A stretch of 64,000 nucleotides of DNA, taken from the NCBI GenBank assembly GCA_964035545.1, contig OZ037769.1:11601133-11665132 (forward strand). Direction: 5' to 3'. The translations under genes were made by a program, and so were the position numbers. This document shows, one piece after another, positions 7,973 through 58,100 of this stretch. Position 1 is the stretch's first letter; every line of letters begins with the position of its first letter. The notes below the pieces were generated by a model, which made no database searches, was not told where the DNA came from, and saw only the letters and a list, made by a program, of their open reading frames with translations. The DNA is from Bugula neritina. Taxonomy: Eukaryota; Bryozoa; Gymnolaemata; Cheilostomatida; Bugulidae.

Positions 7973-8363
7973 GACCCTTTTCAGAGGTCCCTAATGTCCC
8001 CTCTTACAATTAAGAGTTGTGGTCTGCCAAAATGAAATTTGTTGAGCAAAATAGGCTTGAACTCATTTTTGTGGTTTTGGTTGCTGAGCAATGCTGAAGT
8101 GCCACTTTAGCATTGCTCAGTATTTCTGTCAAAATTATCCATTAAGAAATATTTAAAAAATTTTTGAACTGCTAATATGTGTGCTTGTAGCAAAATATCT
8201 ATCTCCTAAAAGAACAATTCTATACCATATTTAGTATTCTAAGTAGCAGCCAAACTTCAAATTTTTAATGAGTTTGCTCTTTATGCAAAGGTTCAGCCTA
8301 TTCCCTTTGGGAGACCACAACTCTTAATTGTAAAGAGGCTATCAGAGACCTCTAAAGAAGATA
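7973..8363. mobile_element. TA-flanked MITE (GACCCTTTTC family), copy A
   Basis: About 42-bp inverted ends: GACCCTTTTCAGAGGTCC...ACAATTAAGAGTTGTGG left, and the inverse at about 8310-8360. TA on the left at 7971-7972; the right end is slightly mutated in this copy. No coding capacity. About 390 bp. Confidence 0.75.
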
Positions 8364-8624
8364 TATTCACTATTGTATATTGATTATAATATTTCATCAC
8401 GTTAGCATTTAAACTCTATCATACAGTTTGATCAAAGAATTTTTACTTTTACTCACCTTTAATCTCCAAATATTACTGTTTATTAATTATTATCTTGATT
8501 AAGATCTTTGTGGTAGTAACGTTTGTTTCCTGTTTTGTTGGAGAGTCTGGTTCCACAGGATGTAGATTTGATTCCTGATTGTTACAGATAAGAAGGGACA
8601 TGTTAGTAACAGATACAGAGATTC

Positions 8625-8683
8625 TAATTGGCTGCTATAGAATAGATGTTGAGTAGTCATATATGATTGGCTGATTTCACATA
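8625..8683 (+). promoter_or_regulatory. Proximal upstream region of gene 1 (two ATTGG boxes)
   Basis: Two ATTGGCTG motifs (inverted CCAAT cores) lie upstream of the start codon, in CTAATTGGCTGC and ATGATTGGCTGA. The first motif is kept as an ATTGG core in gene 2, at about 49038-49045. In the second, gene 2 reads TTGTTGGCTGA near 49091, so its ATTGG core is altered. No convincing TATA box is seen. The transcription start is unknown. Confidence 0.35.
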
Positions 8684-8693
8684 ATGGCGGAAG
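8684..8693 (+). CDS. Gene 1 exon 1 (10-nt coding start, M-A-E)
   Basis: ATG GCG GAA G is followed directly by a consensus donor GTAAGT, leaving phase 1. It joins in frame to the exon at 11232, whose acceptor (..TGTAG) leaves two bases of a codon. The same arrangement, ATG GAG GAC G then GTAAGT, occurs at 49110-49119 in gene 2, and the flanks are conserved between the copies. That supports this as the true start rather than a downstream ATG. Confidence 0.7.
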
Positions 8694-11600
8694 GTAAGTC
8701 AGTTTTAGTGAACTAAGTAAATATAATGTAGTAGTTTAACCATTATCCAAGTAACTTATATGAAATTATACAAACTCAACTCATAATGCATTCTTCTGAA
8801 AAATTGTGACTCATTGATGACTATTTTCTTTCATTTCTTAAGTTTATGCATCTTGAGTTCATTTTTTAGAACCAACAACTCAAATATGTTAAAATTGTAA
8901 TCAAGAATTATATGACCACAAACTTGTACTAGCTAAATATTTATTTCTAGTCTATCAGATGATTGCTATGGGTATGACAAATCTAACTTCCTGCTATAAC
9001 ATATGAACTATTGTTACATATGCAACGGATGCTGCTACAGCCCTGACAATGACAATTATATCATACCATAAATAACAGCCATATAGCCATGAAGCATCTA
9101 TTATAATTTTGAATTTTCTCTGAACTAATTGTATTTTTCTGGAATTTAAATATCTTACATATCTTAAATATCTAAACAAATTATCCTGGCTACTCAAGAA
9201 TACAACAGGATAAATTACAAATCTTCAACGTTTCAAAGACACTAACTGGAACTCAGAAGAAATACGGACAAATACAGAAAGAGGCTCTAGCTATAGTGTT
9301 CGCACTAAAGAAGTTTCATCAATACCTCTACGGCCGGCGGTTTATCTTGGTTACCGATCACCGACCATTATTGGCACTATTTGGACCTACAAAGGAGACG
9401 CCAGCTTTAGCAGCCAACAGACTAGCAAGATGGGCACTGCAACTCAGTCAATACGATTATAGTATTGAGTATCGCACGACCAGCAAACATGGCAATGCAG
9501 ATGCACTTAGTCGTCTGCCAGTTGGCCCAGACTTCAAGTTTGATGAGGAGGAAGATGGCAATGATATGGACACGATATGCACGATACGACTGATTTCTCA
9601 ACAATTGAAGCCAACAGATCCAGGAGTACTTCTAAAAGAAACCTTGAAAGATCCCGTTCTGTCTACAGTAATTCGCTACACAAGAGAAGGATGGCCTAAA
9701 ACACTAGAAGAGACAAACACAGAAGATGAGGACCAAACTCATAGTGCAGCTTACAACATACAGTGTTTCAAGAAGGTGTCTGGCTCACTCTCTATCTCAG
9801 ATGGATGCTTGCTGTACGGTTCAAGAGTTGTAATACCGCTTACCCTTCAGCCACAAGTTCTGCAGATTCTTCATCTAGGACACTTTGGCATGCAGCGGAT
9901 GAAACAACTCGCACGTTCTGCTGTTTATTGGCCAAGAATAGACGCAGACATCATGGATGCTTGTAAACAGTGCAGCTCTTGCGCTGAGCACCAAAATCAA
10001 CCAGCCAAAGCTCCTCTCCATCCTTGGATGATTCCAGAAAAGCCATGGAGTCGTATTCACATCGACCATGCAATCAACTTTCTGGGAAGCAACTGGCTAG
10101 TAATTGTGGATGCATACTCAAAGTATCCCTGCATACATCCAACTACATCAACATCTTCCAAGAGAACTACAGAGCTTCTAGAACAAGACTTTGCACACTT
10201 TGGATATCCCCACACTATTGTATCCGACAATGCAAGCACATTCAAGTCTGACGAGTTTCAAAGCTGGTGCCGGGATCGTGGAATAGTTCATCTATCTGGA
10301 GCCCCTTATCACCCTGCCACAAATGGAGCAGCTGAAAGACTAGTGCAATCATTTAAACAGGCTCTAAGAAAATCTAATTTACCACCAAATCTAGCTTTGA
10401 CTGAATTCCTGATGCACTATCGACGCACACCCTTGATAGGAGGATACTCGCCCAGTGAACTGCTGAATGGGAGACAGATTCGTTGCAAAATTGATGTTCT
10501 GCTACCATCACCAGCACACCAAGCCCAAGGACGACAATCAAAGGAAGTGGAAAAGTCTACAGACCAGAAATCCACTGTATCCAAAGTTCACACCTATACA
10601 GTTGGAAGTCCTTGCTACGCACTCTATTGTGGGCCCCGAAGAGACAGAGAACCACGATGGGTCCCTGCCATTGTCACAAAAGTATTGGGACCAAGAAGTA
10701 TAAATGTCAAAGTCACACCAAGAGGACCAATATGGAGACGTCATATTGAACAACTATTACCACGCTACGGGGTTGAGGAAGATTCTGAACCAGCAGACGA
10801 TGTGAAATTTGAAGTTCAAATGGCTGATGTTTCAAATGACGATAGTACTGCTAACCAAATACCTCAACCATGGAGAAATCCCGACTACCCATAGGAGGAG
10901 AGTATGGACCTGAAAATCTTAGAAGATCAAAGAGATTGGCAGCTCGCCAAAATACATAGATGCATCAAAGGCTAGTGGGGAGATGTTACATATGCAACGG
11001 ATGCTGCTACAGCCCTGACAATGACAATTATATCATACCATAAATAACAGCCATATAGCCATGAAGCATCTATTATAATTTTGAATTTTCTCTGAACTAA
11101 TTGTATTTTTCTGGAATTTAAATATCTTACATATCTTAAATATCTAAACAAATTATCCTGGCTACTCAAGAATACAACAACTATATTACAAGGTTTAGTA
11201 GATGTACATTGCATGGTATTTCAATCTGTAGAGGAAAGATATAGAATATGGTTTAACTCTGTCAGTATAGAAGAATCTGATAGAGAATGGGTGAAGAATA
11301 TTCCAGATAAAAGCTACACAATAAATGGGTTGAGACTTGAAAGTAGACGGCATACCATCACTCATGTTATACTGTGGTTTAGCACTCCTCCAGATATTCA
11401 CAATCTCTTCCCTCATCTCACACACCTCGTGTTGAAGGGTATAGAGTCATCTGCCAGGCGTAGCGGGTAATGAAACTCCTCATGATATATTGTATTATTT
11501 AATATGATGTTTATAGAACTTCTTTACTGAAATGTGCAGGTGTAGCATGAAATTATGTCCCTCTTCACCTCTCAGTTTCTTAATATTTATATTCTGGTAG

Positions 11601-14600
11601 TAGAAAGTATTATATATCTGCCTGCTATTTTACAGCTTATCTAAGTTGAAAACTATTGAGAAACAGAATGTGTCAAGGAACTTTCTGTCTGATTATCTAC
11701 CAGATGACATGTTCAATTCTTTACAGTTACTGAAAGAGTTGCATGTCATTGGCTGTAGTCTCAGAACTCTACCAACGAGGTATGTACTGTATATATAATA
11801 AATTATAGTAGAATGATACTGTATGCTGTCCTAAGTGACTCATTATGTAAATTGCTTGCATGTTATAATATAAGACTGCATTAATAGCAGATTATACAGT
11901 GTAATGAATGTATTGTAACACTAAAATGAATTATATACATGTCTGTTATATTACAGCATATCTCAACTGAGAAATCTTGAGATACTGAATGTGTCAGGGA
12001 ATAGCTTGTCTGGTAATCTACCAGATGATATGTTCGAGTCTTTACAATCACTGAAGGAGTTGAATATCAGCGGCTGCACACTCACCACTCTACCAAAAAG
12101 GTGTGTGCTGTATATATAATTATTCTATGTTGACAGAGTAACAACTCTCAACAGAGTCCTACATTGGCTGAATTTCTCTCCATCTAAAACCAGAATTATA
12201 TTATGTTTTGCATTTAATGATTTGCTCTGTCTAACATGATAAGAACCAACTCTCATTGTATGCTATTCTCAGCTTCTGCAACACTGAGCTGCCATGAAAG
12301 TTTAAACTTTGAACTTTCATATTACTAGTTTTTACATAACTGAACAGTTATTAGAATTTCTGCTCTATGGAACTCTGTGGTGGCTCGTGGAGCTACCAGC
12401 AGCGTAATACGGGGAAATATGATTTCCCCTACTATACAGCACGGGGTCACGTAATTGACCCGGAACAATGGACAGCCAATTAGCGACACTGATAGCTAGT
12501 AGCAGTAGTTAGTTTTCCTGCGTTAGTTAGTCGAAGATAGAGTATTGAATTGTGTAGACGTATAGATTAATTGAATGTATTTGTATAGTTTTTGTGATGT
12601 ATTCTTGTGTGTAAAATATACTCGTATTAACTCGACTTATCCTGGTGAAGTTCTCTAGCACATAAATAGACTTTCTTGATTGCACATCAACCCAAAACTG
12701 AAAAACATAACAACTCTTCAGCTATGATGAACCAGTAGACTAGAGGAATATGTTTTTTTAATTTGAATGTATAACAGTGCTGAGTTTGCATATGCCTTGT
12801 TTTAAATATTTCATAAATTATTTTAGCTTTGCATATACAATGTTTTATCCCAGGATATAATGTATATTGTTAATTATCATTGTTATTATTAATGTTTTTT
12901 TCCAAGTAACTTGTTTTGTTTGCAGTATAAAGTATAATGTAACAAATTTTATCGTGCAATCTCATTATATTTAATATGTACAGCATAATCATCTTACAAC
13001 AATAGAAATATTATATACAAGTCCATTATATTACAGCGTATTGGAGCTAACAAATCTTCAGATACGGAATGTGTCAGGGAATTTTCTGTCTGATAATCTA
13101 CCAGATGATATGTTCGAATCTTTACAATCCTTGAAGGAGTTGAATATCAGTATCTCAACTGAGAAATCTTGAGATGCTGAATGTGTCAAGGAATCGGTTG
13201 TCTAATAATCTACCAGATGACATATTCACATCTTTACAATCACTGAAGAAGTTGGATATCAGTGATTGCTGTCTCAGAACTCTACCAAAAAGGTGTGTAC
13301 TGTATATATAATTATTCTATGTTGACAGAGTAACAACTCTCAACAGAGTCCTACCTTGGCTGAATTTCTCTCCATCTAAAACCAGAATTATACTATGTTT
13401 TGCATTTAATGCTTTGCTCTGTGTAACATGATAAGAACCAACTCTCACTGTATGCTATTCTCAGCTTCTGCAACACTGAGCTGCCTTGAGGGTTTAAACT
13501 TTGAACTTTCATATTACTAGTTTCTAGATAACTGAACAGTTATTAGAATATCTGCTCTATGGAACTCTTCAGCTATGATGAACCAGTAGACTAGAGGGAT
13601 ATGTTTTTTAATTTGAATGTATAACAGTGCTGAGTTTGCATATGCCTTGTTTTAAATATTTCATAAATTATTTTAGCTTTGCATATACAATGTTTTATCC
13701 CAGGATATAATGTATATAGTTAATTATCATTGTTATTATTAATGTTTTTTTCCAAGTAACTTGTTTTGTTTGCAGTATATAGTACTGTATAATGTAACAA
13801 ATTTTATCTTGCAATCTAATTATATTTAATATGCACAGAATAATCATCTTACAACAATAGAAAGAATTATATACAAGTCCATTATATTACAGCATATTGG
13901 AGTTAACAAATCTTCAGATACGGAATGTGTCAGGGAATTTTCTGTCTGATAATCTACCAGATGATATATTCGCACCTTTACAATCACTGAAGGAGTTGAA
14001 TATCAGTGACTGCCGACTCAGAACTCTACCAACGAGGTATGTACTGTATTTCTAATAATTATAGTAGAATGAGACTGTCCTAAGTATTCAAAGGAAAATC
14101 TATTTCATTATGTAAATTTTCTGCATGTTCTAATCTAAAACTGCATTAATAACATATTTTACAGTGTAATGAATGTATTGTAACATTAAAAAGAATTATA
14201 TACATGTCTGTTATATTACAGCATATCTCAACTGAGAAATCTTGAGATACTGAATATGCCAGAGAATTATCTGTCTGGTAATCTACCTGATGATATGTTC
14301 ACATCTTTACAATTACTGAAGGAGTTGAATATCAGTGACTGTAGTCTCGGAACTCTACCAAGGAGGTGTGTACTGTATATATTCAAAACATAAATTTGTA
14401 GTAGAATGAGGCTGCATAATGTCATAGAAATTCACTTTTCTGCCTCTTAATTTATAGCTATAAATTTTCATCACCTCTACTTATGCATATTAATTGCATT
14501 TAAAAAAGAGATAAGAAATATTTGTAAATGTAACGCATCCAGAGAGTACTAGACTGGTTTTCGTATCTGTAAATGTTTTCTAAAGGATTTTCATACCTAT

Positions 14601-17600
14601 TCAAAGTAAAGCGTAGTGTCTGCATATATAACTGCCCTACACTAGTAGTACATATATGAATAGCAGTAAAAGGTTTAATGTACAGGCAGCAGTGGGTATT
14701 TTCATGCTTAGAACTTTTTTTTTAAAACAATGAAACTGTAGTCAAACTACTTTATTCTGGCAACTTTTTACAATGAATCATATTCTATTGAAATTTAATC
14801 AGGATGACTTTAAATAGAAAAAGCATTTTGAGTTGAATTTTGATTATTCCAGACCTATATTAATCTTAAAGTAGTTGCAAGAATACTGTACTAGCTGATG
14901 ATAGAATTAGTGGTCTAATAGACGGTTTTCGCATACCTCTCTAGGGGCTTTTATAGTTTGAAGTTGTCTCCTCCCACCCGGTACATGGGGGAGTCTCCAT
15001 GATATATAGAGAGTCATAAAATCAGGAGAAATTTAAGGTTTGTGTGAAGACTATTGCTAGCATAAGTTTCTTTTCTGAGATAAATATTTTGGTCTAAGCA
15101 TACGTAGCAGTTCCAAAAAAGTTTAAATTTTTTTTCTTGACAAATCTTAGAAAAATGAACTTCAAAGCATGTTTGTAGTTTTGGTTACTGAGCTAGCTAA
15201 ATCTGTAACTATGATATAAGTTCCATTAATCATTTGTTATGCTGGCTGTCATGTTCAATTTATAGCTGTTGACCTTTCAACTCTTCGGTTAGGTTCTGCT
15301 GTTAACAAAATTTTAGAGCACTGCTAGTGACTGAGACAGCAGATTAGCTGTGTTAGCATTTTCAATTGGTGACTAGTCAATATTCCGAAGGCCCATTAGT
15401 CCGAAGGCCCATTAGTCCGAAGGCCCATTAGTCCGAAGGCCCATTAGTCCGAAGGTCCATTAGTCCGAAGGTCCATTAGTCCGAAGGTCCATTAGTCTGA
15501 AAATTAGTAGACACATGATAGTAAAGAGCATCCTCACTGAGAATATCATTGATTTCACTCACAATCTAGTTTAAGTTCTTGCTCTGTTAATGCTGTATGT
15601 GGGTGGCATGCGTGTTGCCTGCTTGCGATTGTTTAGCCTGAGATTACACTATGACTAGAAAACAGCTGCCACAATTAGGGCTGCATCGTTTATCAACATT
15701 CCATTATGGCTGCTTTATAAACAAAGTACACAGCAAGCTATTCACTAGCCTGTCAGCTAGCAAGCCTGTAATTAGTATGTACACATCAGTATCTTCTCAT
15801 CTCTAAGTGTTCACTGAAGCATGAAGTGCTGCGAAATGATGATAACTTAGGAAAAAAATTTACTGGCATTTAATTAGTATTACTTATTTTACAGCTAGTG
15901 TAAAAATGACAGGGGACTGCAATTCTATTCTAGCTACAGTCAGTCAGCTACACACCATAATATACCAAACCAAACAAATCCGCAAGATATGTAGATAAGG
16001 GCAACCTTCTAGCTGTAACTGCCTGGCTGGGGCCACACTATTGGTATATAAGAATTCAGTCCAGCCAAATAAAACCTCCCCTAATTGTGCTATAGAATCG
16101 AAATTTAAAAACCATGTTGTAGATCTTTCTGTTCCTCAAAGCAACTTTTTTGAAATTTCCAATAGCTTTTATAGATTTTCTATAAAATATAAAAATATAA
16201 ATATAAAAAATAAAATTTTCGGACTAATGGACCTTCGGACTAATGGACCTTCGGACTAATGGGCCTTCGGACTAATGGGCCTTCGGACTAATGGGCCTTC
16301 GGACTAATGGGGCTTCGGAATATTGCTCCATCCCCTTTTCAATTGAGTATATACTTACGCCTTTATGCTATAAGAATAGCTAAACTACCGAAAAATGAAA
16401 TGTGGATTGATACATGCTATCAAATTTTATAGCAGGCTAAATGCATCTATTGCAATTGTGACAATTATGCTCAAATAAATATATCTATAGATAAACCCAA
16501 ATAGTCTTTTACCTGTTGGCATTCAGGCTTTTGTGTTACAGTTTTGTTATTTCTTAATATTATGCCTGTGGCTTGTAGCATTTAGGAGCAGTAGTGGAGA
16601 AGTTGAAGTAGCCCAAGTTCTTTGAATTACTTTAAAAATGTTGGTGTTGCGAATAACATAACTTCTTTTACTGCATTTCTAATCTAGAACACAGGCTATT
16701 CTCAATTTCTCCATTACTGCACCTATTGCCCATAACACACTACAGTCGAAACGCGACTGTGGCGGCCATTTTGGAGCTGCTTGCGCATGCCTTCAACGTC
16801 ACGTCCTACTTTTTACTGATCACACTACAGTTCACTACGAACGATGAAAGCTAACTGTCTCTAGTCTCGCAGTAAACTTTTAAACCAATAGGAATGCCAT
16901 AAACCAGTTTCTGCAGTATCCACAGTAACCAACAATTAATCTTGGCGCAATTTTTTGAGATTTACTAGCATAATTTAATAAGATTTTCTAGTTATTTTTA
17001 TTCTAATTTACTAGCTTCAATTATTCAAAATTACTAGCTTTATTTAATGATATTACTTAGCTTTATTCAAGCTCATTCACTAGCCTAAAGAACTAAATAA
17101 TTATAGTACGCTAATAAAATTCAACCAAATTAGAAAAACTAAATATGCAGATAAAATTTAGCAAAATTTATCTAATGAATACTTATTTTCATGATTTATT
17201 GAAACTTTCATACATAACTTCATCATAATTATTTTAAAAGTAAATTAATATAATTTTCGAAGAACCAAATCAAATAATAATGCTCGCTAGTAGCACGTGG
17301 AAAAAGTAAAAGCACTTAACCAATCAGGGTTTACCTGGCCAGTCAGTGATTGGCTGATCGCTCAACTTCAGCGATGACAGTTGAACATGTTGAACTTTCA
17401 TCGCATCGCGAAAAACTGACAGTTGCGTTCAGTTGTGACGTCACAGAGGTCAACGCTTAGCCTCGAAAACGCGTTCAAGATGGCCGTTTTGACTGTAGTG
17501 TGGCAGCCCCATTAATCTTGTGTGTAGTAGTCATATCCGCTGGCTGCAGTAGACTCAAGGTCCTAGTTAATGTAGATGGTAGGTTAGTTATATAATTAAA

Positions 17601-20600
17601 TAAAAAAAAGGCTAAGCTAAGCCAACTACTACCGGACCTGAAAACCCAAGTTTTCCAACCCATCGAATTGCAGTATAAACTGAATTATCTGAAAACCGCT
17701 TCAGAAAGAAATTCTGGTTTAAAGTATTAGGCAGATTCTGATAAGTGAAGCAGTGAAATAATGCTGATAAAATTGAGTTATTAACTTTTTGCTTGGGTTT
17801 ACAGTGAAACTATTTATTGTTATAGCTTCTCAACTTCTCATACTCTAAATATCTACATCAGCTAATCTTATTGAAACTTAGCTGTAGTTTTACAGCTGGC
17901 TTGGCTGATTCTGGGTCACAAAATCTTATTGTAAACTTTATATTACACAAGAACTTTGTCTAGTAGTTCAGGCTACTTTATTATAACTGTAAACTATCTA
18001 ATGATATTATAGCTTGTCCAGGAGAGTACTGCCATATAAAACTATGACAGTGGTATATGTATGTTGATAAATTATGGAACTATTATAAATAAGCATAAAC
18101 ATAACAAGTGATTCACTAGCATAAGGAAAGGCAGCATAAAATTGTAATTAATTATGAATCAACAGCTGACATCACAAGAGTAAATATGAACATGTTTAAT
18201 TATTAGCAAATGCACAGTTATAATGCTTTTCTTTAATTTGAGCCTCACATTCGGATGACATAAAATTTTAGAGCTTGGCTATAAGTCAAGACAGCACCAA
18301 TTAGAATATTACAGCTCTTATCTTGAAATAGGCATAAGCGAGGATAAGTTAGCATCAAGTATAACATTTCAATTAAAACTTTCAAATAAAACTATTAGAC
18401 CTGTTGTAAAATATGTAATAAAGATATAGGGCAGACAAAATATTTCAAGATGACGTTGAATGAAAAGATGTCTGCCTAAATATAAAATATTTTAACTAAA
18501 TTTTTGCATAAACTGATCTCTGCTTCTCTTAGTAATATTTTTCTTTTAAAGAAGTTTTAGCCATAACATGAAACTATCTAAAACATTCACAGTTCCTTGA
18601 ACATAATGTAGCACAAGCTCTTAAAAGTATAATCAAGTGTACATGCTATAGCCTATAACACAGCTAGGCTGCTGCACAGGCATGTGAGTAATTACAATAT
18701 GTAACTAGGAGTGAAACAGGACCACTGCAGAATTGAAAGGTCAATTCAGTTATAAATTGCATGGTAATAACAGATAAGACAACAAATGATTATTGGGGCT
18801 TAATCATAGTTGCCATTTCAGCGTTGCCTAGCAACGAAAACCACAAAATCCGTGGAGGACACAACTCTTAATTGTAGGGGAGATCTCGATGACATTGGAA
18901 AAGGGTCTTATTATTCGATATTTGTATATCAATTCAAAGTTTTAACATAAATTTGATGTTTTACATGGTCTGTGACTTGCTGCAATCTGCTTTCTAAACT
19001 TTAGCTTACAGTCATTTTATTTTAGTATACAGAACCTCCAGGCTTTACAAAAACTAGACATATCAAGCAATATATTCAGCAACATTCCACCTTTTGTGTA
19101 CACATTGAGTAGTCTGCAAGAGCTGAATATATCCTACAATGAGCTTCTGAAGTCTCTACACCCTGAGATACTACAGCTGACTCACCTTCATGCACTGAAG
19201 ACAGATGGTTGTGATGCTCTCGCAACTCCTCCACTAGAAGTGTGCAGAGGAGGATTAGATGCTGTGAGGCAATATTACAAGGATTTAGCTCAAGGCTCCG
19301 GAAAGAATATCCCATTCGCTACAGTTGCTATGCTTGGTAATACAATGGCAGGAAAGACAAGTTTAGTTAGAACATTGCAAAGCCGTGAGAGAAGAAGAAT
19401 TTTGACTTACAGAAGCCCGGAAGCTGCCGTAGATGAGACGACAAAAGTCTTCAATGTTCAAGAAGTTGAAGTAGATGGCACAGTGCTGCGTGTCCTTGAC
19501 ATGGGGGGACAGGAAGTGTATCACGCAACATATCAACTCACTTTGAGACAAAACTGTATACCAGTTGTTGTAGTCAATATGGAAGAATATGAAAGCCTTT
19601 CTACAAAGTTTTCCAGTAGAGAAGCTGTGAGAAGATTAGCCTTTGACTACATGTCTCACCTCTATCTGGCCAATCCAGCTCTTGGTGCACCTAAGCTCGT
19701 CTTGACTCATAGAGACAAATTTCCGGGCACCAAATTTCTAGAGCTAAAATCGTCGTTTCTCAACTTGGTGAATCAAATAAGTGCTGAGATTGTTAAAGAA
19801 GAGAAAGAGGTTGGTGGTGCGTTTTGTCGAATTGAACATTTCAAGAAATCAGCAGGTGGAATCTTCATTGATGATGACATTTATGAAGTCGGAATTGATG
19901 ATGAATATGAAGTGTTCGACCAGATCAAGAAATCTCTTTTTCAAAGCAGTCAAACTTTTGTCAAGCCTCTGCCTTTGGTTTGGGAAGAAGTGAATGAGAA
20001 GGTTCTGCTTTTAGAATCTGGCTACAACTCATTCTGGTTTGTTCTGGCTATGCTAAGACAGCAAAACCTTCAACTTGAATCTGGTCAGCTGGGCATCATT
20101 CTTACTTACATGCACGATTGTGGTAAGATTCTGTGGTACAAAAATCTGGATACCCTGAAGCCTTACATCTTCCACAAGATATCAGAAGTTACCAAACTTT
20201 TAACAGTTCTGTATCATCATGATCCCAGTGTGTGGAACAGCCGACATGATCAGTTCCTGCCATTTCTTTCTGGTCATAAAACCTTTGAGATACAAGATTT
20301 TGAAGCAGCCGTAAGTCAATTCACTGAAACCAGTATTTTAACACAGAATATCTTAAGCTATTTAATAAAAACTCAGACCGAATTTAGGAACCACAATGAT
20401 GTAGAAGTTGCTATTTGCCTTCTCAAGACTTTCCGCCTGCTACACGGTCCGTTGCATCATCAATCTGGTGATGATTCCACCGAATTGTGTTTCATTGCAC
20501 CGCAATTTGCTAGAGAATACTTGAATATTGAGTACCAGTCACCAAAACGCATGCGCCTCCATGTTGGCATACTGTTCAATGGCCTAGCGTTACCACACTA

Positions 20601-23600
20601 TGTTTACCATCAGATGACGGTTGGTTTACTAGAGCGGTTTCCTGATGAACTTGCTGATGTCAAAGTCAAGAGAAACGGGGTTGATGTGTATCAAGATGAA
20701 ATATACACGAGGCTGATACACGACTACAAGTCAAGAAAAGTGCTTTTATTTGTCTCATCAGACGCAGAAAACATCATCAGAATGTGGCAGATATTGATTA
20801 CGTCTACTAACAGCATCCTCAGGCATGTTTTAGAAACATGGCCCGCATGCAGACCAGTCCCAACAGTTCACTGTGGTCACTGCTTGTTGCTAGGCAACCC
20901 TCATCCTATAAAGAAAACATCACCTCAGTGGTGTCTTCGCTCTGTAAACTCGGCTGTTCCTCATGTCAAATCATATAAAGGATCCTCAACAATCAAGTGT
21001 CAAGGAGAAGTAATCCCTGCTGCTTTACTCTATCCATGTATGTTGATTTCAGTTAATTAATTAACTTGTTTATTTATTATGAATACATAAATAAGTTCTG
21101 GGCTATGATGCTGATTTACTAACATTTAGACATCGTGGTTGTATATGATATATATTTTGCACTCTGAGATATACTTTATATAATATAAATGTGTAAAGGA
21201 TCTCATTGAATCCTATATAATGCAGCTCATAAAGCTCTTTCTCTTTCCTCTATTGATAAGTCTTGTATGCACATGAATATTTTCATGCAAAATATATTCA
21301 CTCAAACAGTAATTGCTGCCTAAAAATCTGTAAGTTATTGAATATTGCATAAACAAGTTTTCAAATAGTTTGCCTTATTGCATAGCAAAGCCTTATTCCA
21401 TGTTATCCAATGAATATTCCTCTTTACCACCTCTCTTTAATCACAATCTGAAGAATATTTGCTATATTTTGTTGTTAAACCATCTTATCAAATTACAGGT
21501 GAGACTCTGTCAGAAGCAGATTCTGAGAAGTTTAAAAGTGCTGTCAGTGAATTGATTGCCAGAGAAGAGAGAAATCAACCAGATACTTCAGGTAGAGAAA
21601 TGCATATTATTATATATGTGGCTGAGCCACTAAATCTAACTCTTGGTAAAAATGAAGATGTGTGATTTCTAGATGTTACAGTGCCTTTAGTTTGGTTACC
21701 TTTGCAGTTCCATTGTATGCTAGACTACAACTTTATAGAGTAACACTTTTCAAAGTAATCTTTTGAATCTAGAATCCATAGCAGTACCTTTGTAGGCTGT
21801 TCAGTTTTGCTTTCTTGTTTGAATCAATCATACTTTGTATAGAATCTAAATTTCAAGACATTAACTCTGTTGCACTAAAAACTGGTACATGGTTTTGTGT
21901 TTTCCAGTTGAAGATAACGACCTATCAGATCTGAGAACTGAGGAGGTTACAGCCAATGATGATCTGAGTGATCTCTCCGATGAAGACGAGTATTTGTACC
22001 CTGATAAAGAGAAAGGTGTGCAAATGAGGTTGATAAGACCCAAGCTGGAAACGACTACAAACTTGAAAATCAAGCAACTTTTTTCTAACACTGATAAGGT
22101 AATATTTCGTATAATCTAATATAGTATTTAAAGGCACACAGGTGAAGCACATATGTAAAATCTTTCTATGCAAACAAGCCATTATTTCCAATTTATAACT
22201 GCAGGTATACAGTATGACACGCAAAAGAGGAAGAGCTCTGATAATAAACAACAAGAACTTTGATAAGAGACCAGATCTGTGTAGGGCAGGTTCAGATGTT
22301 GATGTTGAGAATATGTCTGTAACGTTGAAGGACTTCAAATTTGAAGTTGTGACTCACACAGATCTGAAAACAGAGGTAGGTATGGTGTGACAAGACAGTT
22401 TCTACTGAATATAAGCTTATGGTTTGTGTATTGTCATATCGTAAAGCTTGCTGACTCAGCATTTACCAACACATATGCAACGGCAGTTTCTGTAGGAAGT
22501 GCGTTTCTACTAAACTAAGTCGAGGCATCTATTAGAATAAAAACATTATTCAGCTAATTCATAACACAAATTTTCCAGGCTATTCTGTCTACCATTAAAC
22601 ATGAAGTACAACGTAAGGAACATGAAGATTTGGGATGTCATGTGTTGGTTATCATGACTCATGGGGGTGTGGGTGGTTTCATTTATGGAGTAGATATGAA
22701 GAAAGTGAGCCTCACTCATGTGTATGACCTGTTGACCCCACTGAACTTTCCTGGAATGTCTGGGAAACCAAAGATTATCATTCTGGAAACTTGCAGTGGA
22801 AGTGTTTCTACAGTTAGTAGAAAGTGCTTTGGGAAGGATTGAAAGTAATTTTCAGATTACTCAAAGCTTAATCTGCTATCAATTTAGTTTATTGTATAAT
22901 TGTCATTTGGTAATGGATGAGCAATTTCTTGTTTTATTAAAATTGAGACTGACAGCTTGGTTGGATTTTCTTGTTTAAACAATTATTAGTTCGGCCATAA
23001 CGAATATATAGATTCTAAACTTGTATAAAATGATATCACAGCTAGGATAGATGTTGGGAACAGAGGCATAGACTCAGCACCCAATGTTGGACAAGCTCAG
23101 ATAGAGCATGCTGAAATCGTCTCACCCTCCCCTACCAGAACCCAAACCGTTGAGAATACCGAGTGTAAGAATAAGAAGAGCTCTGGTGATTTGTTAGTAG
23201 CTGAATCTTCCATTGAGTGTGAGTAGCACAGCTATGCTTTCTTGATAAACCCTCATAATTAATAATAGTCCTACATTTCTCATGCATTAGGAGTGTTCAC
23301 TATCTTATTATGTTACTTTGTTTACCATTAAGACAATTTTGGCTTGATCATTTCACAATAAAGTAAATAGTTTGCATTCAGTGGTGGCCTACACTCACAT
23401 GGCAGTATCTATAAACATAACCAGTTTATTTCACAGCTGGGATAGATGCTGGTGATAAAGACATAGGCCAAGAACCTGGTGCTGGACCAGCTCCGAGAAA
23501 GGATGCTGGAATAGTGTCACCTTCTCTTGCGGAAAAACAAGAGAACGGGAATTTTGAGTCTAAGATTAAGAAAAGCTCTGATGATTTGCTAATAGCTGAA

Positions 23601-25639
23601 TCTATCGCAGAGTGTGAGTAGAGTAGCGATTGATAATTTTAAACAAATTCTTATAGTTGATATTACTATATTGTATTAGTATTAGAAACACAGATAGTTT
23701 TTTGCATATCACTTCTTCTGTACATCTTTGAATGTGCATTTCACAATATAATGAATATTATGCATTCCATAATGGATGAAAAAAAAAATATCTACTAAAA
23801 ATGAGCATTTGTTTCACAGCTGGAAAAGATATTGATGACAAAAGCATAGGCCCAGTACCTGATGCTCTACTAGCTCAAAAAGAGGATGGGAAAACAGGGT
23901 CACCCCTTCCTGTTAGAATTCCAGGAGATAAAGATGCTGAGGCTATGACCAGACTGAACTATGATGATCTGCTAGTAGTGAAAGCTAGCATGGAGTGTGA
24001 GTCTACTCAGTTGTGTTGTATTTCTGTATGCATCTTCACTGAACTATATTTACTTACTGAACAATAGACCTCATGGAGGGTAAAGAGGTGTACTGGGGAA
24101 TGCTACAGATTTTTAGCAGGGGTGCTGTGCTGTGCTGTGCTGTGCTAATCAGAATAAAAATGACAGTTTTTACTTATCTTAAGCATTAAAAGGGTCCTTG
24201 AAAAATGGGCAAAGGGCCACAAGTAGTGAATAGTAGACCACATGGAGGGTCAATAAGTGTACTGGGAATGTTATAGCTCTGTAGTATGTATCCACTGCTT
24301 TCAACACTATACTGATTGTTAATATAATAACCTGGCCAGGTTCCATATTCTCATCACAATGTGTCCCAATTTAATCTCTGTTTCAGTATTTCTATATAAA
24401 TATTAACTATTGTAGCATTTACATCAAAGATACATCCTGTGTATGGGTCGCTAATGGTTAGAGCTCTTGTTTCTTCAATGTATAGACATGCCGGTCACCA
24501 TGATCTCTTCACCATATTCAAACAAGTAAGTTTACCAGTTTAGTTTCTGTAATACAGACTCAATTACCCTAGAAACAACAGTTGCAAAGTAACATTGTGA
24601 AACCACATTGCATCTCTAGCAATGCTGAAAGACATTCACTGGTTCCAAGCTTCGAATAAATGATTTTTCATTCGATGTTTAGAAACAGTTGCATTCAATG
24701 AAACCACATAACTACAATCATAGGTTCATGCTAACCGCAACCACAAACTCAGCCTTATGAACCTCCATTCCCATCGTCCAAAGTCATGGTAACTCGGCAA
24801 ACCCAATGTTTTTAATGGCTAACTAAATTTCTCCCAGTATAGTTACAGCAGCCATCACAATGCAACAAGCAAATACTTGTAAGCAAAGATTAACATGTCA
24901 ATAGGTGGGCTGGTCTCATAATGTGTTGGAAAAGAATTATTCCAGATCACTTAAAGAAGAAATGCTTAAAAGTTTAGTCCTTACTATCAGCATGTTGTTT
25001 TTATCATGTAGCTGAGAATAGGATTCTTTTTCACTCTCAATTTTGTCAAATTAAGCGGAATTATTTATTTTCTGTTCTCAAAAGACTATAAACCTTCAAA
25101 ACTATGCAACAGTTTGCTGCCCAGTTGATGTGAATTGACTCAAATCATTTTCTGTTGCAATATTTTGCTCGATTACTTTATGATTTTTACCCAACTTTGA
25201 TGTACTTTTAGTATGAATAGTTAACTCTGCTTGCTCCATTCTACTGCTAGATAGCTTTTATTTTAATAGAGAGGTAGTTCTCCCCTGAAAGCTATAATCT
25301 GCAACAGCAACAAGGCTTATAGTAGCACTCATATATTCCACTATGACATCATCCTTCTGTCTGAGTCTCAGAAGTTAGAATTCTGGGATATCTGACTCAT
25401 GTCACATGACTCGTAGTCACATGAGTTCAAGTCATAAACCTTTTTCTTAGAAATGTAAATTGTTGAAACTTACAGTTAATTATGATTATGTTTAGGTACA
25501 GACTAAAGTCAGGAAACTGTGCCTAGAGAAAAGGTTAGACAGTGGACAGCTGGTTGTAGCCTGGGATACTCTCACTCACATGAGAAAACTTTACCTGTTT
25601 CCTGGTTTCAATGGATACAAAAGAGATGATAACTCTTAA
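8684..25639 (+). CDS. Gene 1: LRR-Roc-COR-caspase fusion protein (multi-exon)
   Basis: Predicted one-chain receptor: LRR sensor, Roc GTPase switch, COR dimerisation domain, caspase-type protease. Coding exons: 8684-8693, 11232-11466, 11636-11779, 11957-12100, 13893-14036, 14222-14365, 19026-21037, 21499-21591, 21908-22098, 22205-22375, 22579-22816, 23042-23218, 23437-23613, 23820-23996, 24416-24525, 25496-25639. They sum to 4311 nt (1436 aa plus stop); every junction uses GT...AG and keeps phase, with no internal stop. Approximate residues: LRRs 80-370, P-loop 378-386, DMGGQE 432-437, THRD 501-504, COR 590-870, Cys-rich segment 890-945, caspase p20 1040-1175 (His1124, Cys1168), p10 ending at 1436. 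The frameshifted exon 13037-13292 must be skipped. No signal peptide or membrane segment is evident, so a cytosolic protein is inferred. Exon joining comes from reading splice sites, not RNA. A separate downstream caspase gene is possible but less likely, because phases match and no start or polyadenylation signal is obvious between. Confidence 0.82.
9012..9207 (+). repeat. 5' LTR of the young gypsy derivative
   Basis: 196 bp, TG...CA, appears identical to the LTR at 10984-11179. Preceded by target-site copy ACTAT. Confidence 0.92.
9225..10894 (+). CDS. Truncated pol: RNase H C-terminal part and integrase
   Basis: An open frame of more than 530 codons without frameshift. It starts inside RNase H (QKKYGQIQKEALAIVFALKKF.., VTDHRPL, then HGNADALSR). 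The integrase zinc motif follows (HLGHFGMQ... CKQCSSC). The integrase core then has all three acidic positions: Asp in IHIDHAINF, Asp in IVSDNASTF, Glu in TNGAAERL. A C-terminal basic tail follows. The frame is open upstream into the LTR, so no natural start is evident; the first GTG/ATG choice is arbitrary. In a complete element this would be cut from a Gag-Pol polyprotein. Here the upstream pol is absent, so expression is uncertain although the integrase core looks intact. Confidence 0.85.
10984..11179 (+). repeat. 3' LTR of the young gypsy derivative
   Basis: 196 bp, TG...CA, directly after the polypurine tract. Followed by target-site copy ACTAT, which then continues into gene 1 intron sequence. 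Confidence 0.92.
11232..11466 (+). CDS. Gene 1 exon 2 (N-terminal region before the LRRs)
   Basis: Encodes about 78 residues, with phase 1 in and phase 2 out (donor GTAATG). I do not recognise a named domain. The end resembles a first, imperfect leucine-rich repeat (..HNLFPHLTHLVLKG..). The counterpart at 57474-57708 has exactly the same length (235 nt) and is nearly identical, so selection or recent duplication has kept it open in both genes. It probably forms the N-terminal cap of the LRR solenoid. Confidence 0.7.
11636..11779 (+). CDS. Gene 1 LRR exon a (144 nt, phase 2-2)
   Basis: One of a set of 144-nt cassette exons, each encoding 48 residues, that is two LRRs of about 24 residues (pattern LxxLxxLxVSxN..LPDDMFxSLxxLKELxIxxCxLxTLP). 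It starts after TTTTACAG and ends ACGAG|GTATGT. Its first LRR is degenerate, with a Lys-rich stretch where the others have an LxILNVSGN-type core. Confidence 0.8.
11957..12100 (+). CDS. Gene 1 LRR exon b (144 nt, phase 2-2)
   Basis: Two leucine-rich repeats with the motifs LRNLEILNVSGNSLSG and LPDDMFESLQSLKEL. The acceptor is TTACAG and the donor is AAAAAG|GTGTGT. It begins SISQLRN, the type that alternates with exons beginning SILELTN. The following intron is of the long type (about 940 bp here, enlarged by a solo LTR). Confidence 0.85.
12101..13036 (+). other. Long-type intron of gene 1 holding a solo LTR
   Basis: Belongs to the long intron class that follows most SISQLRN-type exons (also at 13293, 58320, 59742 and 60799), with the conserved stretch AACTCTCAACAGAGTCC. 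Here it is enlarged by a solo LTR at 12376-12712. Nothing else is coding. Confidence 0.7.
12376..12712 (+). mobile_element. Solo LTR in a gene 1 intron
   Basis: A 337-bp sequence starting TGTGGTGG and ending ATAACA. It interrupts an intron stretch (GGAACTCTTCAGC) that is uninterrupted in the sister introns at 13293-13892, 58320, 59742 and 60799. ACTC is repeated on both sides (12372-12375 and 12713-12716). A 5-bp AACTC duplication is equally readable if the LTR ends one base earlier. TG...CA ends, a short target duplication and no coding content fit a solo LTR left by LTR-LTR recombination. Confidence 0.75.
13037..13292 (+). pseudogene. Fused, frameshifted LRR exon in gene 1
   Basis: Two neighbouring LRR cassette exons are joined without an intron. 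The first is cut after ..LKELNIS and runs straight into the second exon near its start (junction about 13150). The second exon's normal opening CATATCTC has lost two bases and reads TATCTC. The length is 256 nt, not a multiple of three, so reading through gives TGA at 13170-13172. The outer splice sites (TTACAG and AAAAAG|GTGTGT) look intact. Because all LRR cassettes are phase 2-2, skipping this exon keeps gene 1 in frame; including it would truncate the protein before the GTPase. Confidence 0.8.
13893..14036 (+). CDS. Gene 1 LRR exon d (144 nt, phase 2-2)
   Basis: SILELTN-type cassette encoding two LRRs, with LPDDIFAPLQSLKELN in the middle and TLPTR at the donor. It is very close to the exon at 58915-59058 in gene 2, including the unusual AP in place of S/T before LQSL. 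Acceptor ATTACAG, donor ACGAG|GTATGT. Confidence 0.85.
14222..14365 (+). CDS. Gene 1 LRR exon e (144 nt, phase 2-2)
   Basis: SISQLRN-type cassette encoding two LRRs, ending LGTLPRR at donor AGGAG|GTGTGT. It is the last cassette before a 4.66-kb intron and the large Roco exon. By position it corresponds to the gene 2 exon at 61728-61871. Confidence 0.85.
15378..16325. mobile_element. Fold-back-like element with tandem-repeat inverted ends
   Basis: Both ends carry about seven tandem copies of a 16-bp unit (GCCCATTAGTCCGAAG and its GGTCC variant), in opposite orientation: 15383-15497 and 16217-16320. The outermost bases CAATATTCCGAAG (15378-15390) are perfectly inverted at 16313-16325. The centre (15512-16170) has two opposed pieces related to the 754-bp MITE at 198, 35926 and 39913. 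Long inverted ends built of tandem repeats are the hallmark of fold-back elements. There is no coding capacity. A single-stranded copy could form a large hairpin. Confidence 0.75.
16736..17502. mobile_element. MITE with CACACTACAGTC inverted ends
   Basis: CACACTACAGTC at 16736-16747 is inverted as GACTGTAGTGTG at 17491-17502. Subterminal inverted similarity continues (GGCCATTTTGG against AGATGGCCGTTTT). No transposase. A clear target duplication was not found, so the family is not assigned. Confidence 0.6.
18820..18908. mobile_element. Fragment of the GACCCTTTTC MITE family
   Basis: Contains the stretch ACAACTCTTAATTGTA and ends AAAAGGGTCTTA, matching one end of the elements at 7973 and 48383, with a shared stretch resembling GTTGCCTAGCAACG alongside. 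The other end is absent, so this is a partial copy. Confidence 0.55.
19026..21037 (+). CDS. Gene 1 main exon: terminal LRRs, Roc GTPase, COR domain
   Basis: A single 2012-nt exon, acceptor TTTTAG, phase 2 in and phase 1 out. It opens with about three LRRs (LQKLDISSN.., LQELNISYN..). The Roc domain follows: P-loop GNTMAGKTS at 19336-19362, switch motif DMGGQE and base-recognition motif THRD, the THxD form usual in Roco proteins. The COR domain follows, with conserved stretches such as GIILTYMHDCGKILWY and the region around FEIQDFEAA. A Cys/His-rich tail (VHCGHC ... W-C ... KC) precedes the donor CCAT|GTATGT. In the Roco family, Roc binds GTP and COR dimerises. The paralogue at 62587 is nearly identical. 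Confidence 0.92.
21499..21591 (+). CDS. Gene 1 linker exon 1
   Basis: 93 nt, acceptor ATTACAG, phase 1 in and phase 1 out (TCA G|GTAGAG, a weak donor). It encodes about 31 residues, acidic and predicted helical (ETLSEADSEKFKSAVSEL..). No domain is recognised. It links the Cys-rich end of the Roco exon to the caspase part. Confidence 0.65.
21908..22098 (+). CDS. Gene 1 linker exon 2 (acidic)
   Basis: 191 nt, acceptor TTTCCAG, donor GATAAG|GTAATA, phase 1 in and phase 0 out. It encodes a strongly acidic, Asp/Ser-rich linker (DDLSDLSDEDEYLYPDKEKG) ending in a basic stretch. Such a segment before a caspase domain could be a flexible prodomain linker; its several Asp residues are conceivable processing sites, which is inference only. 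Confidence 0.7.
22205..22375 (+). CDS. Gene 1 caspase p20, first half
   Basis: 171 nt, phase 0-0. The translation carries the caspase core start YSMTRKRGRALIINNKNF and then CRAGSDVDVENM. This matches the family pattern RGxALIINNxxF ... R-x-G-[ST]-D-x-D. The Arg (residue about 1066) corresponds to the p20 Arg of the substrate S1 pocket. The exon ends ..VVTHTDLKTE, matching the family's xDLTxxE segment. Acceptor AACTGCAG, donor ACAGAG|GTAGGT. Confidence 0.9.
22579..22816 (+). CDS. Gene 1 caspase p20, catalytic His and Cys
   Basis: 238 nt, acceptor TTTCCAG. It encodes HVLVIMTHGGVGGFIYG, with catalytic His at 22660-22662, and KPKIIILETCSGS, with catalytic Cys at 22792-22794. The two are 44 residues apart, normal for caspases. 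The usual QACRG pentapeptide reads ETCSG, so the S1-pocket Gln is Glu. The donor at 22817 (TTA|GTAGAA) was chosen because it alone restores phase to the next exon without including a stop. It is weak, and without splicing the frame ends at TGA 22840-22842, so a p20-only product is possible. Confidence 0.85.
23042..23218 (+). CDS. Gene 1 p20/p10 linker exon, copy 1 of 3
   Basis: 177 nt, phase 1-1, acceptor TATCACAG, donor GAGT|GTGAGT. It encodes a polar, low-complexity stretch ending KKSSGDLLVAESSIE. It is homologous along its whole length to the exons at 23437 and 23820. The last residues line up with the first strand of caspase p10 (family form DFLIAYST), so the cassette holds the inter-subunit linker plus the start of p10. 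Confidence 0.72.
23437..23613 (+). CDS. Gene 1 p20/p10 linker exon, copy 2 of 3
   Basis: 177 nt, phase 1-1, acceptor TTTCACAG, donor GAGT|GTGAGT. It encodes GIDAGDKDIG... ending KKSSDDLLIAESIAE. It is the closest of the three to the first copy. The identical length and symmetric phase mean any subset of the three copies can be spliced in without a frameshift. Confidence 0.72.
23820..23996 (+). CDS. Gene 1 p20/p10 linker exon, copy 3 of 3
   Basis: 177 nt, phase 1-1, acceptor GTTTCACAG, donor GAGT|GTGAGT. It ends NYDDLLVVKASME. Joined to the next exon it gives DDLLVVKASMESFTSKI, which aligns without gaps to the caspase p10 opening through to the conserved GS. It is the most diverged of the three copies and the one directly before p10. 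Confidence 0.72.
24065..24275 (+). repeat. Short direct repeats and (CTGTG)n in the intron before p10
   Basis: Two related about 45-bp segments (ATAGACCTCATGGAGGGT at about 24065 and GTAGACCACATGGAGGGT at about 24231) flank a small run of GTGCT units (about 24120-24146). No other feature is seen in the intron 23997-24415. Confidence 0.6.
24416..24525 (+). CDS. Gene 1 caspase p10, first exon
   Basis: 110 nt, acceptor TATTGTAG, donor AAACAA|GTAAGT, phase 1 in and phase 0 out. It encodes FTSKIHPVYGSLMVRALVSS..HHDLFTIFKQ. This matches the family's GSWFIQxL...DLxxIxxxV pattern. The position of the p10 Arg that contacts the P1 residue (Ser-Trp-Arg in typical caspases) reads Ser-Lys-Ile here. Confidence 0.78.
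25496..25639 (+). CDS. Gene 1 caspase p10, last exon with stop
   Basis: 144 nt including TAA at 25637-25639. Acceptor TGTTTAG, phase 0. It encodes VQTKVRKLCLEKRL, then TLTHMRKLYLFPGF, matching the final caspase strand (typically LTKKLYFFPG). It is followed by 3' untranslated DNA with a polyadenylation signal at 26086-26091. Confidence 0.82.
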   Translation, partial: VQTKVRKLCLEKRLDSGQLVVAWDTLTHMRKLYLFPGFNGYKRDDNS

Positions 25640-30516: not shown

Positions 30517-30579
30517 GATAGGCGCCTCTGTTAGCCGACTCTTGAGGTGGTCAAATGCCTGTTGTTCCTCCTGCGTCCA

Positions 30580-32034: not shown

Positions 32035-32128
32035 TTGTCACTTGTTATACCTGGGGGGCCACACAAATATAGCTGGAGGGCCGGAACCGGCCCCCCCGGG
32101 CCGCCTGTTGGGCAGCCCTGGTCTAGGT

Positions 32129-55100: not shown

Positions 55101-58100
55101 GTGAAGGCGGGGACCTCCCTACGTTGGCAACTGAAGAACCACTGGCACTACAAGTGCCTGCCCATCCATTGAGAAGTCAAAGAGATAGGAAACCATCCAG
55201 ATATCTGGCAGACTATCACGTAGGACACATGGAGATGTTTCTACAGAGGAGTGGTACACCCAGTACGGGTAAAAACTCCGAGTCTCAGTTGCAGAATAGC
55301 CCTGGCAGTACCAGACTTCTCCAAAAGCAACAGCCCCCAGACCAGCACAGTCACCTGGACAACAGATACCCAGCTCTTTCGGGTAATGTTGGCCAAGGTA
55401 GGTAGCGATACTCCATACCCCTGACCGACTTGGAACCCCCTCAAGAGAAGGAAGATGGGGCCACGTCCCTGCTACCTGCCCAGCTGATTGGAGATGGCGC
55501 TACCGCAGCCACCACCCAGCCTCTACGGGTAGCACTGGCAAGACTGGGCAAAGAGCCTGGAGCACCAGTCAGCCAAATAGGAGAGAAAACTCAGCCGCCC
55601 CAACCTTATAATTGCCCCGTCACCGGCAAAATGTGGCACCTCCTTACCGCGAGTGCGTCCTGGATAGTGCAATCCAGGCCTGGTCCAGTATCCTTGACCG
55701 ATGTACTGAAGAGATAGAAAGCCTGGTGCACCACCTCCAATGGCCAAACCGGACAATTAGGAGCCGCCGGCATTAGCCACCCGAACTGTATATATTGTGG
55801 GTACTATTACCATCTTATATTATTGTGATACGTGTGATTAATCATAATACTTTTCTGTTAACCGCATATTTTTCTACTTTTGTGAAATTATTGTTCTATT
55901 ATCTAAAAGGGGATGCTTTTCGATGGGGGGGAGAATGTAATGGATTCTCATTCTCTATTGTCCTGAAATAACAGCATGCAACAGTATTATAAATACTGTT
56001 GCGTATCGTTCTTAATTCTGTAATTATAGTTAAGTAAGCTAGCTTGCTAATGCATAAGTATGGTAATTACTGTTAAAGCTTTCAACATAATGTAATTTTA
56101 CTGAATTACGCATTCTGAAGTTATGTAATATTTTTTGTACTAATGTTGCGTTCTTTTGTAATAGATTTTCATCCGCTATTATTCTGAAATAACTGCGTGC
56201 GTCAGTATTATAAATACTGTTGCGTATCTTTTTTAATGCTGTAATTGTGTAGTAGATTTTTGCATGTACTTATTTCCTGTTGCCCGAGATCGGCATTTCG
56301 GTATTCCGAAATGCCGAAATACCGATAGTCGGCAGTTCGGGCTACCGAAAGCCCCGAAATGCCGAAAGTCGGTGTTTCGGACTTCCGAAATGCCGAAGGT
56401 CGGCGTTTCGGACCTCCGATCTCGGCAACAAGGGAAAAACCCTATCTCTTGCTGTATATAAAAGCCAGCGAGCTCCAGTGTAGTTCAGTCTACTGCTGGA
56501 GCTCACTCGCAGAGGACCTTCAATATTATATTATTCGACTCAATGAAGATTTCTTCAACTGTACAACACATCTTGTTCTCTCTAACAAAGAGTATGTTCA
56601 GGCACTAGTTCTATTCAACCCACAAAAAAATCACACATTGAAAGCAACGTCATGACTATCATCTTCATCTTGATACAATAACAACTCAAACTGATAGCCC
56701 ATTACTGTAGAGACTAAAGACAAAGTGATTACTTCAGAAATCTCAATCAGTCAATGACAGCGTGAGACTGAGTGTGATTCTCATAGTCGTACTCATTGCG
56801 AATGTGATTCTCATTCTGCTCTAAGTATTCTTCGTCAGAGCCAGATATGCTCATATTGATATTTATATTGTATTTATATGTTATTTCTGTATATAATATT
56901 ATATTAGGTATAACTTTATTACAATTACACTGCACAGACTCAGACACGGGTAAGTTGAAAGCTATATATTTGATGCCGTGAAAATTTTTTATGAAATAAA
57001 AACCTAAATTCCACAAAAAAGCACCAATTGGGGGGCCAGACAGCAGTCCAATACGTGAAAAAATGTTAAAACTAAGGTTACATGCAACGGAAAATATAGC
57101 CTATACTTATTTTCTGAATGTCTTACAGGCGGCATTTTATCTATTTCTCGCAATTGCGGTGTAGTACGTCACAGGCAGGTGATAAAAATTCTCAAAGTTT
57201 TTTGGTCATATATGCACTAAACTTGTCATAAAACAAAATTGTCTAAACCTGAAACCCTAAAAGAGTGTTAAAATAATAGCTAAGACATGAATCAATATTT
57301 TCATGCTATATAAGTAAAGTGTGGCAAGGATTCTTTAAGTTTATGCATCTTTTTAGTTCATTTTTTAGAACTAATAATTGAAATATAATAAAATTGTAAT
57401 CAAGAATTATATGACCACTAACTATATTACAAGGTTTATTAGATTTACATTGCATCGTATTTCTAACTTGTAGAGAAAAGATATAGAATATGGTTTAACT
57501 CTGTCAGTATAAAAGAATCTGATAGAGAATGGGTGAAGATTATTCCAGATAAAAGCTACACAATAAATGGGTTGAGACATGAAAGTAAACGTCATACCAT
57601 CACTCATGTTATACTGTGGTTTAGCATTCCTCCAGATATTCACAATCTCTTCCCTCATCTCACACATTTGTTGTTGAAGAGTAAAAGCTCATCTGCCGGT
57701 ATTTTCAGGTAATGAAACTCCTCATAATATATTGTATTATTTAATATGTTGTTTATAAAACTTCTTTACCGAAATGTGCAGGTGTAGCATGAAATTATGT
57801 CCTTCTTCACCTCTCAGTTTCTTAATATTTATATTCTGGTAGTAGAAAGTATTATATATCTGCCTGCTATTTTACAGCTTATCTAATGTGTCTGATTATC
57901 TACCAGATGACATGTTCAATTCTTTACAGTCACTGAAAGAGTTGCATGTCAGTGGCTGTAGACGCAGCACTCTACCAACGAGGTATGTACTGTATATGTA
58001 ATTAATTATACTAGAATGAGGCTGTATGCTGGCCCATGAATTCAATGGAATATCTACCTCATTATGTAAATTGTGTGCATGTTATAATATAAGACTGCAT

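Follow-up and report, generated by a model that had tools for sequence, protein, structure and literature searches.

The window, by which we mean the whole analysed stretch of 64,000 nucleotides (C5:11601133-11665132 of the 216 Mb Bugula neritina assembly), carries on its forward strand a gene at 8684..25639 that has been rebuilt from the DNA, with inferred splicing, as 16 exons which join in phase, are separated throughout by GT-AG introns and contain zero internal stops. The domain order of the joined protein is N-cap, leucine-rich repeats (LRRs), Roc GTPase, COR, linker and caspase p20/p10. The predicted exons and the 5' part of a further gene copy are placed in the window as follows.

8684..8693, forward strand: exon 1 with the proposed start codon (MAE...), an ATG and then a GT donor
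11232..11466 (the 5' edge could be 11199), forward strand: exon 2, N-terminal LRR cap; its phase fits exons 1 and 3
11636..11779, forward strand: LRR exon 1, 144 bp with two repeats, phase 2-2; Pfam LRR_8 on the joined protein
11957..12100, forward strand: LRR exon 2, from the regular LRR-exon scan and phase
13893..14036, forward strand: LRR exon 3, from the regular LRR-exon scan and phase
14222..14365, forward strand: LRR exon 4, from the regular LRR-exon scan and phase
19026..21037, forward strand: Roco exon with the last LRRs, the Roc GTPase (P-loop GNTMAGKTS) and COR
21499..21591, forward strand: linker exon E2, from paralogues, dN/dS, alignment and phase
21908..22098, forward strand: linker exon E3 with the acidic motif DLSDLSD (candidate self-cleavage site)
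22205..22375, forward strand: first caspase p20 exon (RGRALIINN; R-x-GSDVD), from the caspase profile and alignment
22579..22801, forward strand: second caspase p20 exon (catalytic His in MTHG, Cys in ETCSG); Pfam C14 at 8.4e-10 for the exon alone
23042..23218, forward strand: inter-subunit exon Xa, tandem duplicate, phase 1-1
23437..23613, forward strand: inter-subunit exon Xb, tandem duplicate, phase 1-1
23820..23996, forward strand: inter-subunit exon Xc, tandem duplicate, phase 1-1, which gives the first p10 strand (LNYDDLLVVKASME)
24416..24525, forward strand: first caspase p10 exon (SKIHPVYGSLMVRALVSS), from paralogues and alignment
25496..25639, forward strand: last caspase p10 exon and stop (RKLYLFPGFNGYKRDDNS*), from paralogues, dN/dS, alignment and phase
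57420..64000 (edges approximate), forward strand: 5' part of the next tandem copy, with 7 LRR exons at 58915-61871

If exon 2 starts at 11232 the joined protein has 1431 aa, and 1442 aa if it starts at 11199; with only one of the three duplicated p20/p10 inter-subunit exons in use, these lengths become 1313 and 1324 aa. A first-pass annotation of this DNA had proposed sixteen in-phase exons of 1436 codons, and the reconstruction has reproduced this model up to the small difference in length, with the junctions 21037/21499, 22098/22205 and 22375/22579 proving right. The ATG and GT donor of exon 1 recur both in the upstream copy (L009) and ahead of the next copy, there as ATGGAGGAC, and exon 2 looks similar by eye to the ITHV/ITHI region in two Watersipora proteins (P0029 and P0043). 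When shuffled, E2 has remained free of stops in 9% and E3 in 0.9% of the trials. Xc carries LNYDDLLVVKASMES, which is alignable with Watersipora. The exons Xa, Xb and Xc (23042-23996) evolve fast and could be alternative inter-subunit linkers; a long S/T-rich repeat occupies this place in Watersipora P0029. The three X queries have matched one X exon only in the distant paralogues c4_190, c5_173 and c1_227.

On the joined protein, Peptidase_C14 has been found at 2.1e-33 (PF00656, 116 bits at a cut-off of 21.4, profile positions 1-212 of 233), LRR_8 above its cut-off at 7.7e-23 (a single LRR exon alone lies just below the Pfam cut-off) and Roc at 3.7e-8 (PF08477, 35 bits, cut-off 27). A putative COR directly after Roc has been identified by model matching to LRRK2 and C. 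tepidum Roco. The domains named by the first-pass annotation are hence recovered, Peptidase_C14 and Roc by profiles over their cut-offs and COR by this matching, and with Roc present and COR directly after it we assign the predicted protein, as judged from its sequence, to the Roco family. When compared by sequence with PDB entries, the caspase domain has matched an ancestral effector caspase (4.8e-22), CED-3 (1.1e-17) and caspase-8 (3.7e-17), and the matches to the latter two span both subunits. The same scan, of the joined protein without exons 1-2 and with Xc as the only X exon, has given no match at E≤1 to CARD, DED or Death, nor to NACHT or NB-ARC, and a reading of the window gene as an NB-ARC/NACHT protein has been rejected on this Pfam result. 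The absence of a CARD/DED/Death match in the joined protein would agree with adaptor-free signalling. Rfam has given no match at gathering scores in the window.

Three tandem copies of the gene sit in a transposon-rich array. Their LRR exons are exactly 144 bp long, in phase 2-2 and with two repeats each, and they number 4 in the window copy, 3 in the upstream copy and 7 in the next copy, as counted by a strict regular scan that decayed exons may escape. The Roco exon of the next copy starts from about 62587, and the copy continues beyond the window to its caspase exons. In the upstream copy, E3 (L010, about 3968-4160) shows a one-base insertion relative to the window copy, which may reflect a decayed copy or a sequencing slip in a T run. 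Intron 1 holds, at 9012-11191, a pol fragment bearing RNase H/integrase between direct repeats of ~209 bases that are 98% identical, and long reverse-transcriptase/integrase-like frames, of Ty3/Gypsy type by eye, lie at 28723-32037 and 50900-55400. The segments 6000-8841 and 46411-49291 form a 95% identical direct duplication, at least that long, upstream of two gene copies. As to the assembly itself, the contigs C17, C65 and C196 carry non-Bugula COX1 matches, one without TGA codons, so that other organisms may be present in it. COX1 of the mitochondrial contig C295, read with genetic code 5, is 100% identical over 511 residues to a Bugula neritina COX1 record, and a near-equal COX1 match on the chromosome-size contig C6 ties C295 to the host, a cheilostome bryozoan.

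Genome-wide, the gene belongs to a large family whose members are spread over the large contigs. The Roco exon used as query has yielded 66 copies from 145 scored candidates, and a Watersipora Roc-COR piece used as query has given 75 matches, 58 already found and 17 new, which raises the total to 83 Roco exons. Nearly all of these have their own p20 exon downstream on the same strand: 78/83 within 5 kb, 80/83 within 8 kb, 82/83 within 12 kb and 83/83 within 20 kb. In 1000 trials of random placement at 8 kb, the number of pairs averaged 0.5 and never exceeded 4. For the first 66 Roco exons, 64 have been paired, and the three control directions have given 1, 0 and 0. At least 132 p20 exons have been counted, 83 paired with a Roco exon and 49 without a Roco exon found upstream; both the Roco-exon and the p20-exon counts are lower bounds. 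The unpaired p20 exons form clusters on C7, C9 and C2, and caspase-profile matches number 176 in the genome, where several exons of a gene may count separately. We have concluded that Bugula neritina probably holds about 80 such LRR-Roc-COR-caspase genes or more. A 2363-codon frame at the Roco copy C1:33884509, considered as a merged gene, has been rejected, as the frame crosses a stretch of N.

All copies are related, and the pairing therefore excludes chance neighbours, yet it allows for the co-duplication of two genes, a Roco gene and a neighbouring caspase gene that have been duplicated together many times and merely look joined. If the Bugula copies all go back to one ancestral pair, the 80 pairings in 83 do not count as independent observations; no Roco exon has been found upstream of 49 of the 132 p20 exons, and the joining of the exons, including the splicing of the window copy, is read here from DNA alone. 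A retrocopy search with 250 residues spanning the Roco end, E2, E3, p20a and p20b (150/342 candidates scored, 161 matches) has given, among the matches listed, no processed single-frame copy and none longer than about 107 query residues, the longest containing stops, and has thus yielded no intronless evidence of splicing. Against two genes stand the joined reading without a stop, the absence of a separate prodomain match and the behaviour of the exons between Roco and p20. The downstream exons recur in 8/8 paralogues examined, with edges compatible from the flanks, although E2 and a few other short exons align only partially in some, distant, paralogues. The dN/dS ratios, computed against four of the eight paralogues, are 0.25 and 0.25 for the pooled linker in the comparisons with the tandem copies, each based on only 3-4 substitutions of either kind, 0.19 and 0.12 in those with two C6 copies, for which E3 alone was used, and 0.24, 0.18, 0.14 and 0.19 for the pooled caspase exons; pooled linker and caspase exons are under constraint (dN/dS 0.12–0.25). 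Higher values have been obtained for the Roco exon (0.37 and 0.46, from comparison with two copies), for the p10a exon alone (0.57-0.59 in tandem copies) and for the p20/p10 linker exons (1.17, 0.59, 0.77 and 0.59).

A further argument for a single chain has come from another bryozoan genus. Nine annotated proteins of Watersipora subatra (P0029, P0042-P0049) combine Peptidase_C14 with the Roc/COR region, whole or in part, and 7/9 of them also contain LRRs. P0029 covers 87% of the query, to which it is 33% identical; P0042 begins at the P-loop and ends before most of p10, and P0048 begins inside Roc. Precomputed Pfam annotation places Roc on P0049 only, and the remaining Watersipora proteins have been linked to Roc-COR by alignment. 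In a Pfam scan of P0029, Peptidase_C14 has been found at 8.5e-31 and MMR_HSR1 just over its cut-off, with LRR and Roc under theirs (Roc 20.4 of 27 bits). An AlphaFold model of the whole P0046 was poor (pLDDT 58, pTM 0.34) and has been set aside. P0029 and P0043 start with MGCSLS and MGAKSS, which resemble N-myristoylation signals, and the Bugula model starts with MAE, so that membrane anchoring may differ. Two further proteins were considered as caspase-free members and dropped: P0030, which is annotated without a caspase, has an end resembling the last linker segment before p20 and may be a truncated model, and P0032 has likewise been dropped as proof of such members.

An alignment of 16 rows has been built, in which nine rows come from Watersipora, one is the window copy and six are paralogues. 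Of the eight paralogues examined, the tandem copies have been omitted as near-identical; the paralogue rows begin at the C of 'PC'. Conserved across the 16 rows are the 'PC' before E2, a DLSD-type motif and a segment running into p20; the linker middle is variable between these parts, and P0046 is without most of an E2 counterpart. The motif [DE]-[LVI]-S-D in the COR-p20 linker occurs in 16/16 rows of the two genera, and LSD is present in the listed Bugula E3 exons of paralogues. A constrained linker that can be aligned between genera at its ends and at this motif speaks against two genes, and we regard the co-duplicated pair as very improbable. The reading of the first-pass annotation that LRRs, Roc-COR and p20/p10 lie on one polypeptide is accordingly the one we retain for the predicted protein.

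The function of the conserved motif is a matter of proposal. Executioner caspases have D-x-x-D as their consensus and the kinase CK2 has S-D-x-E/D, and as the DLSD-type motif fits both alike, it is put forward only as a candidate self-cleavage site; S-D-x-E/D in the linker could alternatively be a CK2-like kinase site.

The active site of the window copy retains the catalytic His (MTHG), the Cys (ETCSG) and the p20 arginine, and it departs from the QACxG pentapeptide by E instead of Q. The S1-pocket arginines of caspases are the p20 R and the p10 SWR arginine; the former is kept in 16/16 alignment rows of the two genera, and at the position of the latter the window copy has I. The first-pass annotation had spoken of an executioner protease, a label that finds no support for the window copy, in which the substrate pocket differs from that usual in caspases (Q→E, R→I). 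Because of these two exchanges Asp cleavage is doubtful for this copy, and it is best described as a caspase homologue rather than as an established Asp-specific caspase. One may therefore ask whether, given a genuine fusion, the Bugula branch or at least the window copy represents a pseudo-caspase or a protease of altered specificity that scaffolds or regulates other caspases and does not act as an executioner. The E for Q is found in 7/7 Bugula alignment rows and in most but not all of the 23 p20 loci whose sequence has been followed as far as the active site. These loci comprise 21 different sequences; 19 of them are Roco-paired, and L003, L005, L006 and L008 have no paired Roco exon. The p10 arginine position is R, I or S among the copies, with R in several paralogues, and the cysteine has been lost at 2/23 loci. 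Yet 21/23 loci keep the cysteine, the window copy preserves His, Cys and the p20 arginine, the pooled caspase exons are under purifying selection, and Watersipora has QACSG in 9/9 proteins and Arg or Lys at the p10 position in 8/8 rows reaching it. We thus consider an inactive or redirected Bugula branch unlikely, though worth bearing in mind. At the loci L044 and L025 the catalytic cysteine is replaced (EASSG, EAASG), and these may be pseudo-caspase members.

The composition of the protein can be compared with several known systems. LRRK1 and LRRK2 have a kinase output and the Bugula protein a caspase output; for Roco of C. tepidum no output domain is known. MFHAS1-like LRR-Roc-COR proteins and the amphioxus protein P0039 share the N-terminal module of the Bugula protein, but P0039 ends in a Death domain, which would have to be connected to a protease through adaptors, and Bugula has the protease in that place. 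P0039 with its Death domain and amphioxus LRR-Roc-COR proteins are among the first named matches from other animals in a search with the first 500 query residues (7988 candidates scored), and the Watersipora caspase region (507 candidates) has given mite or schistosome caspases among its first named matches from other animals; in these word-based protein searches more distant fusions could escape. A metagenomic protein, P0041, is LRR-Roc-COR-CHAT by precomputed Pfam and 26% identical over 36% of the query; it carries CHAT, not C14, and its CHAT domain is presumably a caspase-like peptidase. The NLR inflammasome, the Apaf-1-CED-4 apoptosome and the PIDDosome combine sensor repeats, a switch or scaffold and a proximity-activated caspase, and they consist of several polypeptides. 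Relative to the NLR and apoptosome ATPases, the Bugula protein would be one polypeptide with the GTPase Roc in place of NACHT/NB-ARC.

A close parallel is bacterial. Bacterial LRR-AP-GTPase (Roco)-COR proteins are reported to carry at least 24 kinds of C-terminal domain, a caspase included (PMC8195603, eLife 2021); they are conflict proteins that, like the Bugula protein, join LRRs, a Roco GTPase, COR and a C-terminal effector and occur in several copies per genome (PMC8195603). In contrast to these LRR-Roco-effectors, the Bugula gene is an animal gene with introns, and its caspase domain finds its PDB matches among animal caspases, CED-3 included; moreover, 80/83 Bugula Roco exons go with a caspase, whereas the bacterial C-terminal slot holds at least 24 domains (PMC8195603). 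For animals, no LRR-Roc-COR-caspase protein has been found described among the matches listed from titles and abstract starts of the openly licensed PMC literature, and database entries of the 'uncharacterized protein' type with this order exist. The order thus appears to be known in bacteria, with an animal description not found. From the earlier interpretation the one-chain fusion is upheld, whereas its statement that no described example was known gives way to the bacterial LRR-Roco-COR-caspase proteins in print (PMC8195603), its pointer to sponges and cnidarians to a bryozoan host, a sponge origin being rejected by COX1, and its executioner label for the window copy to the pocket changes given above.

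Taking the observed anatomy and conservation together with steps borrowed from Roco and caspase biology, we consider it probable, though by a limited degree, that a single Bugula neritina gene encodes a one-chain intracellular receptor with an LRR sensor, a Roc GTPase and COR, an acidic linker and a caspase, which would work in the following manner. The LRRs would bind a ligand of pathogen or non-self origin, and a nucleotide-dependent rearrangement of the COR dimer would pair two caspase domains. Their proximity would lead to self-processing at two places, the conserved DLSD-type motif that lies between COR and p20 and the variable stretch linking p20 to p10, and the freed active protease would start cell death or inflammation with no need for a CARD/DED adaptor. 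The tandem, transposon-rich arrays and the varying number of LRR exons fit an NLR-like immune or allorecognition role. A one-piece sensor-protease could also serve colony life, in allorecognition or polypide regression, and not anti-microbial immunity: the family is very large, LRR-variable and tandemly arrayed in a colonial animal, and bryozoans renew zooids by regression. Variable LRR families are, however, also typical of immune receptors, and we judge a purely colonial purpose to be rather unlikely.

With the one-chain receptor as the preferred reading, a broader view may be offered tentatively, and with somewhat less than even confidence: bryozoans may have evolved an adaptor-free inflammasome, consisting of ~80 or more LRR-variable one-polypeptide receptors with a self-releasing caspase, as a counterpart of the bacterial LRR-Roco-caspases, with the Bugula pocket shifted to a new specificity. 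To our knowledge, initiator caspases in the known animal systems are gathered by CARD, DED or Death-fold partners. A receptor with its own caspase, multiplied ~80-fold in one bryozoan and annotated in a second genus, would show that animals too can unite sensor, switch and protease on a single polypeptide, as described for bacteria, and one molecule could then carry the signal that other animals relay via a chain of adaptors. It would also make it possible to test directly whether caspase activation by induced proximity can be driven by a Roco dimer, a question that bears on the signal output of LRRK2-type switches.
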